Shown here piece by piece: positions 3,793 through 14,256 of a DNA stretch of 21,326 bases (its first letter is position 1; the number at the start of each line of letters is the position of its first letter). Position numbers and translations under genes: made by a program. This DNA comes from a virus, in the IMG/VR virus record IMGVR_UViG_3300010150_000225, positions 1-21,326 of that record. One strand, given 5' to 3'. Under the pieces are notes generated by a model that searched no databases, was not told the origin of the DNA, and saw only the letters and a list, made by a program, of their open reading frames with translations.

Positions 3793-6450
3793 TTACGATT
3801 CTAGTGCTTCAATTCGTGCAGTTAGTGCAGTAATAATCGCATCTTGGTCTTGAATAGCTTTGACAAGAATAGGTACAAACTTACTGTACTGAAGTCCCAT
3901 CTGCTTTCCATCTGCTGTAGTAGATACAGTCAAGTTTTTCTTTGCAGCAGTAGTATATCCAGCAGCTTCTTCAAGAGCTTGTACAGCCTGTGCCTTAAAA
4001 CCAATATCCATCCAGTCTTCTTTGTGAGTACCGTCTGGAGTAAAGTCATCAAGATCATAGTCTTCATTAAGAACTAGATCGCCTTCTTCGTTTGTAGTGT
4101 ACTTGTCACCATACTTACTACGCTTGTCCCAATAGTAAGTAACAGGCTCTAAGGCTTTTACAAAGTCTAAACCAAGATCTAAGTCAACGAAGTCAGTCTT
4201 ATCTCTCTGATCCGAGGCTACCGTCCAATCAACTTGAATATGAGCTTGAGTAATAGCATCGTCACCTATAACTATCTCATTACTTTCGTTATTGATATTA
4301 CCGCCAGGACTTCCTGATACACCTGCATCATGGCCTATTAACACATTGTTAGTCCCAGAAGTTAAACTAGCTCCTGCGCTTATACCCAAAGCAGTGTTGT
4401 CTGCTCCAGTTACAACTCCAGTGCCTCCGGTGTTGTAACCAATAAAAGTGTTATTAGTCCCCGTAGTCATTGCATCACCGGATAGACCACCTACACAAGT
4501 GTTTCTAGCACCTGTGGTAATATCGTTGCCAGAATTATAGCCAACGGCAGTGTTGTAAGTCTGTCCAGCAGTACCGTTTTGATTTTGAAGAGTAAGAGCG
4601 CCAACAGCTACATTACGGCTAGAAGTAGTTTCAGCACTTAATGCATTGTACCCTAGTGCTACGTTAGCACCTCCAGTAGTAATCTCATCACCTACCAGAG
4701 AACCTAAAAATGTGTTCTGAGTAGCCGTAGTCATGAGAACACCAGCGCCATAACCAACCACAGTATTATTGGCGTTAGTACCAGCATTCAAAGTTTTTAA
4801 CGCTCTATAGCCAATAGCAACATTACGTCCGTGACCGTCTTCAGTAGCAAGAGCTTCAAAACCAACAGCTACATTAGAATCGCCGGTAGTTAAAGCAGCC
4901 CCAGCACTGTCACCTATAAATGTATTGTAATCTCCGCTACCACCTATATTCCCGCCAGCATCAAGACCAAGACGGACATTGTTAGAACCTGCTGTTCTGG
5001 TCTGTATTGTTCCGTTTGAACCTATGATAGCAAGGCGATCAGTAGATCCTCCAGCATATAGCTTTAGATCATTGTCTACAGCGCCTATAAATACTGTATC
5101 CGTATCTGTTGTATCGTCATCCTTAAAGGAAATGTAAGCGCCGCTATCGCCAGACTCAATGTTTACAAGGACGTTGCGTGTAGCATGAAAAACATGCAAA
5201 GGCTCGTTAGGAGAAGCAGTGCCAATTCCAACCAAGCCGTCTTTTGTTATGCGCATACGCTCCGTCGTAGTGTCAGCGCCATCAGCGGTTGTTCTGAACA
5301 ATATGCGTCCAGGCATATCATCTGATCCTGGTGTTCCGTCTACTTCGCTTAAAATATCTGCTGCTTTAGACCCTAGATTAGTTCCGTCATCACCGCAAAA
5401 CTGAATTATTCCTAAGTTGTCGCCACTTTGAACTATAGTATTTGAACCAATGGTTCCGTTGCGGCTTTTACCAAATTTCAAAATCGGTGAGTTGGAATCA
5501 TTTCCGAAACGTGTAATTGACTGAGCAGAAGAATTGCCGGTAGTACCGTTAATTTGAAACTCTGCGCCAGATCCGCCTACTGAAATGCTAGTCTGCGAGC
5601 CAAATATAATCCTATCGTTACCAGCGTCTAAGAAAAATCTGTGGGTGTTTAAATCACTTTCAATACGGAAGTCGAGGTCTTGACTGGCTTCGTTAAAAAC
5701 TGTTTCTGTAGCACCAAATTCTGCTCGACTTCTGTTTGTGCCAGCCACTATCGTAGAAAGAGTAAGTTCTCCGTCTTCTGTACCATCACTAGCATCGAGG
5801 ATTGTAGTAGCTATTCGGGCAAACTGGATGGATTCAGCAGCGTCATTCCTACCAATAAATTCTATTTCACCTATATCATCATTATCAGCAGGGCCAGCGG
5901 AATTCCTATCTAGCTTTAGCGATGGGCCAGCAGAAGCACCGCCGTTGGTGCATTCTACGGTGATCCCTGTATCTTGACTTGAAGTTGTAACAAAAAACGA
6001 TCCGTCGACATGCAGATCAGTAAACGCATCGACCATTTTGCCGCCAGACCCAGCGCCGTCAGAATAGATAGCTTTGACGTTACCATTGGGAACAGTGACC
6101 GTAGCGCCAGATCCTTGTTTGATAATAATGTTATACGGGCCAGATGATCCTGAATCTGTTGTTGCGTTTTCTATAAACCACAGTTTCGAAACTGTATTTG
6201 GCCCTATAGTGACGGTGCAATCGCTATCAAGAGCGCCAGTATATTTGAGGAAGATACTGCGGCCAGGGTCAGTAGCCCCATCAGCGATAGTAGTAGTATG
6301 AGTATCAGCATTAGTCGTAATAGCTTCCGTGCCAAAACTAAATGCCTCACCAATCAACTCAAGGTTGGTGTTCGTACTGGTTCCCCAAGTACCTGATTCA
6401 TCGCCGGTAGATATCTCTTTTAGGCGTAGATCGTTAACGTAAGTTGCCAT
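3793..6450 (-). CDS. Tail fibre/spike with C-terminal S74 self-cleaving chaperone domain
   Basis: An 885-residue protein. Residues 1-150 hold an N-terminal segment (MATYVNDLRLKEISTGDESG) of a type common at the virion-attachment end of marine phage fibres. Residues about 150-490 are beta-rich and include a typical fibre segment MRITKDGLVGIGTASPNEPL (399-418). Residues about 498-712 are repeats of the type xNTxxGxxxGxxxTTG. Residues 746-885 are a peptidase S74 intramolecular chaperone: the Ser-Lys dyad is S746 and K751 in ASDQRDK, followed by LEPVTYYW, GFKAQAVQAL and a terminal helix. In this family the chaperone trimerises the fibre and then cuts itself off before the Ser, here between A745 and S746. 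The protein most likely recognises the host surface. It starts directly behind the stop of the repeat protein, with GAGG eight bases before the ATG. Confidence 0.93.
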   Translation of the reverse strand: MATYVNDLRLKEISTGDESGTWGTSTNTNLELIGEAFSFGTEAITTNADTHTTTIADGATDPGRSIFLKYTGALDSDCTVTIGPNTVSKLWFIENATTDSGSSGPYNIIIKQGSGATVTVPNGNVKAIYSDGAGSGGKMVDAFTDLHVDGSFFVTTSSQDTGITVECTNGGASAGPSLKLDRNSAGPADNDDIGEIEFIGRNDAAESIQFARIATTILDASDGTEDGELTLSTIVAGTNRSRAEFGATETVFNEASQDLDFRIESDLNTHRFFLDAGNDRIIFGSQTSISVGGSGAEFQINGTTGNSSAQSITRFGNDSNSPILKFGKSRNGTIGSNTIVQSGDNLGIIQFCGDDGTNLGSKAADILSEVDGTPGSDDMPGRILFRTTADGADTTTERMRITKDGLVGIGTASPNEPLHVFHATRNVLVNIESGDSGAYISFKDDDTTDTDTVFIGAVDNDLKLYAGGSTDRLAIIGSNGTIQTRTAGSNNVRLGLDAGGNIGGSGDYNTFIGDSAGAALTTGDSNVAVGFEALATEDGHGRNVAIGYRALKTLNAGTNANNTVVGYGAGVLMTTATQNTFLGSLVGDEITTGGANVALGYNALSAETTSSRNVAVGALTLQNQNGTAGQTYNTAVGYNSGNDITTGARNTCVGGLSGDAMTTGTNNTFIGYNTGGTGVVTGADNTALGISAGASLTSGTNNVLIGHDAGVSGSPGGNINNESNEIVIGDDAITQAHIQVDWTVASDQRDKTDFVDLDLGLDFVKALEPVTYYWDKRSKYGDKYTTNEEGDLVLNEDYDLDDFTPDGTHKEDWMDIGFKAQAVQALEEAAGYTTAAKKNLTVSTTADGKQMGLQYSKFVPILVKAIQDQDAIITALTARIEALES
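4315..4959 (-). repeat. Array of about ten degenerate fibre repeats inside the tail fibre
   Basis: Residues about 498-712 consist of tandem units of roughly 20-27 residues with the core N(T/V)xxG(Y/F/x)xAG/AL and TTGxxN, for example DYNTFIGDSAGAALTTGDSN, ANVALGYNALSAETTSSRN and NNTFIGYNTGGTGVVTGADN. Such units are common ahead of S74 domains and probably form a beta-roll or triple beta-helix shaft. The unit length varies, so these are not recent exact duplications. Confidence 0.8.
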
Positions 6451-10094: not shown

Positions 10095-10111
10095 ATCAAT
10101 TTACTCCCGTA

Positions 10112-10618
10112 TTAAGCGTCTGCAAACGGAGTGACAATAGTGCCTGATCCAAGAGTTAGCCCTTCTACTGCATATTTCGCACTAGCGATAGCCGTAACTC
10201 GGATAATACTTCCTGCAAGCCCGCCTTTAGTGCTGCCGTTTAACGTAATTACGTCGTTAGAAGCTCCAGAAATAAAGGTTTTACCAGTTGCGTCATCTAC
10301 GCCTGTGTAAACGCCTCCAACAAACTTATCGGTGCCGTCTGTCAAAATATCCATGTCAGTAGCAGCTGTTACAACTACAAATGTAAATTGAGCACCTAGA
10401 TTATTTGTTTGATCTGGGGAAGTTGGGTCAGTAGGACTAGTTGTAACGATTGAGGGCAAAGTAAACTTGCCATCTGCATCATTACAAAGAAGAATCTTAC
10501 CCGCGTGAGCTGCGACAGTTATCGTCGTGTCTGCGGTCAGACTAACTGTAGCGTTAGCCCCTGCGTTTATAAAACCCGCCAAAGATCTGACTGGGCCAGC
10601 AAAAGTGGTCTGTGCCAT
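10112..10618 (-). CDS. Beta-rich structural protein, 168 residues, first gene after the capsid terminator
   Basis: Starts MAQTTFAGPVRSLAGFINAG and consists of Thr/Ala/Gly-rich beta sequence with VSLTADTTITVAAHAGKILL, FVVVTAATDMDILTDGTDKF and ISGASNDVITLNGSTKGGLA. The opening MAQTTFAGPV is a frequent start of small marine phage virion proteins. I suspect a capsid surface or decoration-type protein but cannot prove it. The gene begins eight bases after an AGAGG ribosome site (10631-10627) that directly follows a leader with interleaved inverted repeats, unlike the other genes here, which are translationally coupled. This makes it the head of a separately controlled segment. Confidence 0.82.
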   Translation of the reverse strand: MAQTTFAGPVRSLAGFINAGANATVSLTADTTITVAAHAGKILLCNDADGKFTLPSIVTTSPTDPTSPDQTNNLGAQFTFVVVTAATDMDILTDGTDKFVGGVYTGVDDATGKTFISGASNDVITLNGSTKGGLAGSIIRVTAIASAKYAVEGLTLGSGTIVTPFADA

Positions 10619-10631
10619 TATAAATACCTCT

Positions 10632-10689
10632 TTACGAAAGGATTCGCCCTAGAGTCTTCGTAACGTCCGTCTGAGGCGGTCGCTAGGGC
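10632..10689 (-). promoter_or_regulatory. Structured leader: two interleaved inverted repeats (possible pseudoknot)
   Basis: In the minus-strand transcript the order is GCCCUAG (10689-10683), UUACGAA (10663-10657), CUAGGGC (10652-10646), UUCGUAA (10638-10632). The first pairs with the third and the second with the fourth, seven perfect base pairs each. Spacers are 19, 4 and 7 bases. This A-B-A'-B' order allows either an H-type pseudoknot or two mutually exclusive hairpins. The last arm directly abuts the AGAGG ribosome site of the 168-residue gene. Confidence 0.55.
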
Positions 10690-10709
10690 TGTTTTTCTCA
10701 GATAGTTCG

Positions 10710-10738
10710 TTTATACAGGAGAAAAAGAAAAGGGGCAA
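10710..10738 (-). promoter_or_regulatory. Weak sigma70-like promoter candidate
   Basis: TTGCCC (10738-10733), 17 bases, then TATAAA (10715-10710) on the minus strand. It overlaps the terminator hairpin and would start transcription near 10703, ahead of the structured leader. The match is 4 of 6 and 5 of 6 to consensus, which is easily reached by chance in AT-rich spacers; kept only because of position. Confidence 0.25.
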
Positions 10739-10751
10739 CAAGTGCCCCTTT
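10716..10751 (-). terminator. Intrinsic terminator after the major capsid gene
   Basis: Minus-strand AAAGGGGCA, loop CTTGT, TGCCCCTTT: a perfect 9-bp stem (10751-10743 with 10737-10729) followed by TCTTTTTCT. It begins 11 bases after the capsid stop codon. It should end or attenuate transcripts from the head operon, with readthrough or a new promoter serving the tail genes. Confidence 0.88.
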
Positions 10752-10762
10752 CTTTCGCGATA

Positions 10763-13610: not shown

Positions 13611-14072
13611 TTATTGCAGAATATCTTCTGGGTTATTTACAGTAGCTAAAATTTCGTCATCGTTTAAAAGACGCATATCGCCTCCGTCGATGTTAAACCT
13701 AGCTCCTGCGTAGCGACCAAAAATTACCCAATCACCCTCTTCACACCAAGAGCCATCAGGAAATTTATCTGGATCGGAATAAGCATCTGGGCCTTTTCTT
13801 ACGACAAGCCCTACTACGGTAGCTATCCGCTCTTTATCAAGAGTTTGTTTAGCTAACATAATGCCGCCTTTTGTTTTCTCTGGAGGAGTAAACGGCAGAA
13901 TTAACAACCGATACCCAGTAGGGTTCGGCAGTTTGTCTGTATGAGCTTCATAATTTTCAGAGGTTATACTTTCTTTAGCAGGTTCTAACGGCGTATCAGA
14001 ACCAAAATTAAGAACTCGTTCTGGAGTAGCTCCTATGCTACTTAAATCAACGTCTTCAGTCGTCTTCGACAT
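13611..14072 (-). CDS. GroES-like co-chaperonin
   Basis: A 153-residue protein when started at the ATG at 14072, which has AAGGA (14083-14079) six bases upstream; an in-frame ATG at 14087 has no such site. Residues 1-48 are a phage-specific extension. Residues 51-153 follow the GroES fold: PTGYRLLILPFTPPEKTKGG (51-70) corresponds to the first strand plus the mobile loop, with GGIML at 69-73 equivalent to the GGIVL that contacts GroEL; then IATVVGLVVRKGPDAYSD, EEGDWVIFGRYAGARFNIDG and RLLNDDEILATV. By analogy with T4 gp31 it would cap the host GroEL to fold capsid proteins. It sits just ahead of the scaffold and capsid genes. GroES-like fold is clear; that it works with GroEL is inference. Confidence 0.88.
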   Translation of the reverse strand: MSKTTEDVDLSSIGATPERVLNFGSDTPLEPAKESITSENYEAHTDKLPNPTGYRLLILPFTPPEKTKGGIMLAKQTLDKERIATVVGLVVRKGPDAYSDPDKFPDGSWCEEGDWVIFGRYAGARFNIDGGDMRLLNDDEILATVNNPEDILQ

Positions 14073-14256
14073 CTTCCATCCTTCCATGCAGGGTAGTTAT
14101 TTCTTGTTCAGCGAAATTAAGCCCTGAAATTTCACCAACAATACGTTGGTACTGAACAAAGTCTTGTGCGCCACCAGTGGCGAGAGTCTGCGCGAGATCT
14201 TCTTGTCTCTCGCGCAGCTTGCGGAGTAAATACTCCGAATATTTTATAAAATCCAT
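14056..14256 (-). CDS. Small helical phage protein, 66 residues
   Basis: An acidic helical protein (MDFIKYSEYLLRKLRERQED, then LATGGAQDFVQYQRIVGEIS and a tail GRMEDVEDD). It has two helices around a short Gly turn, consistent with a small coiled-coil dimer. I recall similar small proteins (a Y...VGxIxGL..A core) near head genes of many phages, with no assigned function. The start overlaps the preceding stop by one base (TAATG), and the end overlaps the GroES-like gene by 17 bases, so it is certainly part of the operon. A role in head assembly is only positional. Confidence 0.78.
   Translation of the reverse strand: MDFIKYSEYLLRKLRERQEDLAQTLATGGAQDFVQYQRIVGEISGLNFAEQEITTLHGRMEDVEDD

Follow-up and report, generated by a model that had tools for sequence, protein, structure and literature searches.

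Organization of the locus

The window, i.e., the whole 21,326-nt stretch of DNA analyzed here, comes from a marine phage. All genes around the site studied lie on the minus strand, and a gap of 144 nt separates the major capsid protein gene from the gene for a 168-aa protein. The features of this region are listed below in the 5' to 3' order of that strand.

11674–10763, minus strand: major capsid protein gene (Pfam Phage_capsid_4 and Mu-like_gpT; PHROG 371)
10752–10728, minus strand: intrinsic terminator downstream of the capsid gene, GAAAGGGGCACTTGTTGCCCCTTTT followed by CTTTTTC, judged real
10715–10710, minus strand: -10-like box TATAAA, 7 nt before P1, weak (position 6 is A)
10702–10697, minus strand: 5' strand of helix P1, TCTGAG, partner at 10670–10675
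10689–10683, minus strand: 5' strand of helix P2, GCCCTAG (arm A of the preliminary description); double compensatory change at all nine P2 positions
10681, minus strand: extra closing pair of P2, G10681 with C10654
10680, minus strand: conserved unpaired A between P2 and P3, invariant in alignment A3 and also demanded by the core finder
10679–10667, minus strand: hairpin P3, CCG-CCTCAGA-CGG, 3 bp (CCG 10679–10677 with CGG 10669–10667)
10675–10670, minus strand: 3' strand of P1, CTCAGA, inside the P3 loop
10666–10665, minus strand: conserved AC immediately 3' of P3, also demanded by the core finder
10663–10657, minus strand: strand B, TTACGAA, in the 3' internal loop of P2, identified by the own-partner swap test
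10657–10655, minus strand: conserved AGA preceding P2', overlapping B at the first A; the finder demanded GA
10652–10646, minus strand: 3' strand of P2 (P2'), CTAGGGC (arm A'), identified by covariation and a covariance-model match
10638–10632, minus strand: strand B', TTCGTAA, adjoining the ribosome site
10631–10627, minus strand: Shine-Dalgarno sequence (SD) AGAGG, directly after B' and 8 nt before the ATG at 10618–10616
10618–10112, minus strand: gene for the 168-aa capsid-spike-like protein, N-terminus MAQTTFAGPV

The preliminary description had reported two perfect 7-bp inverted repeats in the order A-B-A'-B', located after the capsid terminator, with spacers of 19, 4, and 7 bases and with the last arm abutting AGAGG. 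All of this was recovered at the same coordinates on the minus strand (GCCCTAG-(19)-TTACGAA-(4)-CTAGGGC-(7)-TTCGTAA). Among 20,000 shuffles of the 99-nt leader that preserved dinucleotide content, 92 (about 0.5%) contained two interleaved perfect 7-bp repeats; hence the bare arrangement was no more than suggestive, and comparison with relatives was needed. Helix P1, hairpin P3, the weak -10-like box, and a kinship with the Rfam family Mu-gpT-DE had been overlooked. Plain minimum free energy folding did not recover the structure (z -0.4 for the leader), as expected for a pseudoknot.

Covariation of P2 and P3 in related phages

Viral contigs were searched for loci that encode proteins related to the 168-aa protein and to the capsid, and annotated phages and genome contigs were added. 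The core sought was [P2]-A-[P3 hairpin]-AC-B-GA-[P2'], with the finder demanding some P2 pairing, and it was present in 316 of 392 capsid-downstream regions of relatives (178 unique, with 109 different P2 strands). Hairpins resembling the capsid terminator of the window precede the RNA element in many relatives. Among 49 diverse ungapped sequences, double-sided changes were found at all nine P2 pairs and at two of the three P3 pairs, the middle P3 pair appearing as C-G, U-A, A-U, or G-C in different phages. In the same set, 94.4% of the P2/P3 cells were paired, as compared with 56.7% after shuffling and 24–42% with the partner slid, and double-change cells numbered 232 versus 68. Another alignment (A2), which contained a junk row, was left out. 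To offset the P2 requirement of the finder, a second search was made with inner-loop patterns blind to P2; at least seven of the nine P2 pairs were nevertheless formed in 341 of 356 loci, whereas simple binomial arithmetic predicts about 4%. P2 also varies within the window's own clade, where a C-G pair is replaced by U-A in L084 and further changes occur in L085 and L071.

A covariance model (R1) built without the window matched it at 10646–10689 on the minus strand with 34.6 bits (E 3.5e-7), far above the next-best match (12.9 bits). The RNA is present once per genome of about 60 kb; an apparent second copy in one genome (G009) turned out to be the overlapping ends of a single contig, present as two variants. 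That the leader is a structured RNA can be regarded as practically certain.

Two further helices and a double pseudoknot

The loop of P3 pairs with a strand 5–15 nt upstream of P2, forming P1 (TCTGAG/CTCAGA in the window). A P1 run of at least 5 bp was found in 164 of 173 short-hairpin leaders, and 41 of 49 distinct P3 loops reached at least 5 bp with their own upstream strand, compared with 8% when paired with the strands of others. Strand B, in turn, formed on average 5.25 bp with its own partner downstream of P2' and 3.81 bp with partners taken from other phages. None of 20,000 permutations reached the observed sum in the swap test for P1, and none did so in that for B-B'. In both tests each distinct loop or B string was represented once, which corrects incompletely for shared ancestry. 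Matched changes were, however, also seen between very close relatives (L084, L140/L142, and L414/L415); for example, the nearly identical copies that a single contig carries at its two ends show CCCGG/CCGGG versus CTCGG/CCGAG in P1. In the window's clade, B-B' changes from CUUACGAA/UUCGUAAG to CUUACCAA/UUGGUAAG in L140 and L142. The variety of the B/B' pairs is illustrated by TTACGAA/TTCGTAA (window), CTTACCAA/TTGGTAAG (L142), ACATGC/GCATGT, TAGTAG/CTACTA, GTATAG/CTATAC, TTGCAC/GTGCAA, CCTAG/CTAGG, and CGTAG/CTACG.

Since P1 and B-B' pair with their own partners and are added to P2 and P3, the leader is best described as a double pseudoknot around P2, in the order P1-P2-P3[P1']-B-P2'-B'. The preliminary description had proposed an H-type pseudoknot, or alternatively two competing hairpins, gating translation of the 168-residue protein. 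The pseudoknot and the proposed gating are supported, although the second pseudoknot (P1/P3) had been missed, and the pseudoknot is favored over competing hairpins because the two helices are free of overlap and are conserved jointly. Absence of both stems from relatives, or changes in the arms that do not compensate each other, had been named as grounds for refuting the proposal; the comparison was carried out, and both stems covary strongly.

On its own the window's B-B' duplex is weak (about -5 kcal/mol). In the marine AAGCCAAGA class and in canonical Mu-gpT-DE, B-B' is often just 4 bp (GCCA/UGGC). Because genes commonly begin with ATGGC, this pairing could be partly due to chance. An additional hairpin around B' (P5; e.g., CUC/GAG, CUU/AAG, CCU/AGG) was considered and rejected, stems of at least 3 bp being present in 60% of cases versus 48% with swapped flanks.

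Position of B' relative to the translation start

Of the 105 unique leaders with a B-B' helix of at least 5 bp, 90 have a B' that ends no more than 14 nt upstream of the start codon, i.e., in the SD zone; in 8 others it overlaps the AUG. The exact target differs between phages. In some it is the SD itself (CTCC/GGAG, CCTAG/CTAGGAGG), several B' sites lie upstream of the SD and not over it, and the canonical Mu-gpT-DE type targets the start (TAGCCA with aTGGCTA). In L124, whose gene begins with ATGGGT and not with ATGGCTA, strand B has ACCCA in place of TAGCCA. The distance from P2' to the start codon is 8–32 nt (median 22). The task of the blocking strand thus stays constant even as its sequence and precise target vary, and this is the main reason for reading the element as a control of translation initiation.

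The RNA accompanies a spike-like gene

The products encoded downstream share the N-terminus TTFxGPV and have otherwise different bodies; this N-terminus follows the RNA in 323 of 344 pattern-found loci. A Foldseek search with the predicted fold of the window's 168-aa protein (pLDDT of 69.6, a modest value) gave as best match the capsid spike of the Pseudomonas phage Pa223 (PDB 9ny6_C; E 7.4e-5, TMq 0.42), and in the record of DSL-LC04 the gene at the same place is named "cement protein". We therefore call the protein spike-like, its place on the virion being a prediction.

Judged from gene order, the RNA goes with the downstream gene and not with the capsid gene. In seven loci lacking a capsid gene upstream (L498, L508, L519, L531, L537, L551, and L582), the RNA and its gene lie behind a gene for a portal-like protein of about 840 aa, which PHROGs identified as portal in the four tested (L498, L537, L551, and L519), and in L476 the RNA and the spike gene precede the capsid gene. 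Homing-endonuclease-like genes, judged as such from sequence, separate the capsid gene from the RNA in L414 (740–1699) and L446 (3525–5111), where the RNA stays with the spike gene. The capsids of L082 and L083 are about 94% like that of the window, yet these loci carry a Mu-gpT-DE leader and a different spike; comparison with window positions 10100–10760 indicates that leader and gene were swapped as a cassette, with capsid and terminator kept and a breakpoint near the terminator. Exchange of a leader-spike cassette between phages thus looks real from these sequences. Many spike genes of this kind have no RNA (e.g., L304, L301, and L289), so the RNA is not essential.

Further insertions were observed in relatives. 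A homing-endonuclease-like gene, in this case annotated, lies between capsid and spike genes in L171 (2390–3756). Many loci (L006, L015, L023, L036, L061, L079, and those of the L405 type) have a small ORF directly after the capsid gene, between its terminator and the RNA, in a gap of about 600–660 nt; the L006 type is Cys-rich near the N-terminus.

Predicted transcript start

A TATAAT box (at least 5 of 6 positions) starting 12–16 nt before P1 was found in 68 of 99 unique relatives with room for it, against a mean of 6.1 after shuffling, which suggests that the predicted spike mRNA begins with P1. The window's TATAAA fits this pattern weakly, and the box before P1 is absent from the nearby L009/L081 subclade, so that the idea of P1 as the invariable 5' end of the mRNA had to be tempered. 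In the L009 subclade, TATAAT can fall in the P1-P2 linker; a transcript starting from it would omit P1 and could give a shorter alternative leader.

Comparison with known RNAs

The window leader matched no Rfam family. A Pistol ribozyme hit at 10604–10654 of the plus strand (23.6 bits, E 0.012, below the 34.5 cut-off) was antisense, skipped much of the model, and is probably due to chance. The nearest known RNA is Mu-gpT-DE (RF03012), for which we found no function. It occupies the same place between gpT-like capsid and TTFxGP spike genes in close relatives (CRP-901/902, L082, L124, and L250), with further matches in L439 and L449, and shares with the window type the framework P2 - A - inner hairpin - AC - about 9 nt - GA - P2'. 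The window likewise has the outer stem, unpaired A, inner hairpin, single-stranded 3' side, and closing strand of the Mu-gpT-DE layout, and lies downstream of a Mu gpT-like capsid gene. In Mu-gpT-DE, UAGCCA can pair with AUGGCUA at the start, as can ACCCA with AUGGGU in L124. However, the RF03012 covariance model did not match the window leader at the gathering score or up to E 10, nor did it match a freshwater relative, and the R1 model did not match Mu-gpT-DE. As neither model matches the other's members, the kinship rests on layout, place, and core bases and not on model score. The details differ as well: P2 of Mu-gpT-DE is 4 bp long, with its 3' strand merging into the SD (AGGAG), which is not so in the window; its hairpin measures 19–20 nt versus 12–13 nt in the window type; its start codon is 8 nt away versus about 22; and no P1 pairing was found in it. 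Given these differences and the mutual blindness of the models, we regard the window RNA as a relative of Mu-gpT-DE and not as a member. A study with CaCoFold noted that the database structures of Mu-gpT-DE are without covarying pairs (PMC7657543), which is consistent with extra helices in that family. In the literature searched, we found no earlier description of a phage capsid/spike leader of this kind; a related family has been described, but without a function that we could find and without the double-pseudoknot architecture.

Pseudoknots in mRNA that govern translation initiation are known from the E. coli S4/alpha-operon and S15/rpsO leaders and from the SAM-II and preQ1 riboswitches. 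By Rfam scan none of these is homologous to the window leader, and they control different genes. The rpsO leader pseudoknot is also covered by PMC3014915, together with that in the leader of T4 gene 32, which binds its own gene product. The T4 gene 32 element resembles the window type, in which a conserved pseudoknot likewise precedes the ribosome site within the 5' leader of a single phage gene. Its gene, however, is unrelated to the spike-like gene, and gp32, once bound, spreads along an A+U-rich site that is unstructured, whereas in the window the second knot strand is predicted to pair with the ribosome site.

Proposed function and alternative explanations

These findings lead us to propose that the gene for the 168-aa spike-like protein has a cis-acting translational operator as its leader, a reading to which we assign a probability of about 75%; that the RNA acts on translation of the spike gene in one way or another is at least equally probable. 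The 5' part would fold into a compact pseudoknot consisting of the P2 stem, the P3 hairpin within it, and the P3 loop paired with the upstream strand as P1. This platform would present strand B in a bulge, from where it could pair with B', which lies next to the ribosome site (SD or AUG) or covers it. With B-B' paired, ribosomes would be kept off (OFF), and with B-B' opened, translation would proceed (ON). The four helices, the position of B', and the attachment to the spike gene rest on sequence evidence, from which we infer repression by B-B'. The RNA, which recurs before this gene in hundreds of related phages with its pairing bases exchanged in matched pairs, is thus very probably a control switch for synthesis of the spike-like protein.

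As to what operates the switch, we would guess first at a virion protein exerting autogenous control, either the capsid protein or the spike, the latter acting through its conserved N-terminus. Spike output would thereby be matched to capsids, much as T4 gp32 controls itself through the pseudoknot in its own 5' leader; we hold this tentatively, at somewhat less than even odds. The roughly 10-nt conserved core could be there for a ligand, for a protein, or just for folding. A broader and more speculative idea, which we consider rather unlikely, is that one conserved effector reads the common core in phages with many different hosts; Mu-gpT-DE and the window type would then be two forms of one operator whose blocking strand was repeatedly retargeted among SD flank, SD, and AUG. 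Such an effector would most likely be gpT-type capsid protein that is not yet assembled, or else the N-terminal anchor that the spikes have in common, and the RNA would serve dsDNA phages as a switch for counting capsid against spike.

Among other explanations, the least improbable is a small-molecule riboswitch, in which the core (A, AC, AGA) would bind a metabolite or ion and the pseudoknot would hide the ribosome site, as in the H-type SAM-II and preQ1 riboswitches. The combination of a pseudoknot with SD/AUG sequestration, and a core conserved among phages with otherwise different spike proteins, would fit; yet no Rfam riboswitch matched the window leader or the relatives scanned, and the element governs one virion structural gene instead of a metabolic or transport gene, which makes this reading improbable. 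It is still less probable that the knot stabilizes the spike mRNA by protecting its 5' end from 5'-end-dependent decay, B-B' just completing the fold. The -10 boxes would place the first transcribed bases in P1 in the 68 relatives, but this placement fails in the close L009/L081 subclade, the element of L498 lies directly behind the portal gene without an evident promoter, and B' tracks the ribosome site, which a stabilizer need not do.

A trans-acting small RNA, as suggested by the Rfam typing of Mu-gpT-DE (gene; sRNA) and the promoter-like boxes upstream in many relatives, or a packaging RNA, is very improbable: no terminator was seen between the element and the gene, the distance to the start codon is short and narrow, and the pairing of B, in cis at the start of the gene, is specific for the cognate partner. 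We give almost no credence to a purely DNA-level junction, a conserved recombination site for spike-cassette exchange. Leader and spike do change together in L082/L083 while capsid and terminator stay, but the arms vary in a base-paired fashion without shared sequence (cf. the 109 distinct P2 strands), the opposite of a homology site, and as a sole explanation this is already refuted by the covariation.

The translational operator would give a testable function, control of a virion-surface protein, to an RNA lineage of which Rfam had a small, differently built branch only. If a virion protein operates it, this would be a rare case in dsDNA phages of an mRNA pseudoknot tuning virion composition. 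A cultured phage and its host (HTVC027P on HTCC1062) are available for direct study of the switch.

Other genes in the window and related loci

On the minus strand, the window also encodes an 885-aa tail-spike-like protein with a C-terminal Peptidase_S74 intramolecular chaperone domain (3793–6450) and a GTA_holin_3TM holin beside a phage lysozyme (1518–1901 and 1099–1518). A phage GroES-like co-chaperonin is encoded upstream of the capsid block (13611–14087, minus strand) and, in L498, just after the spike gene. In Caudoviricetes sp. ct7L0027 (L169), a tRNA gene (653–726) lies upstream of the capsid gene.
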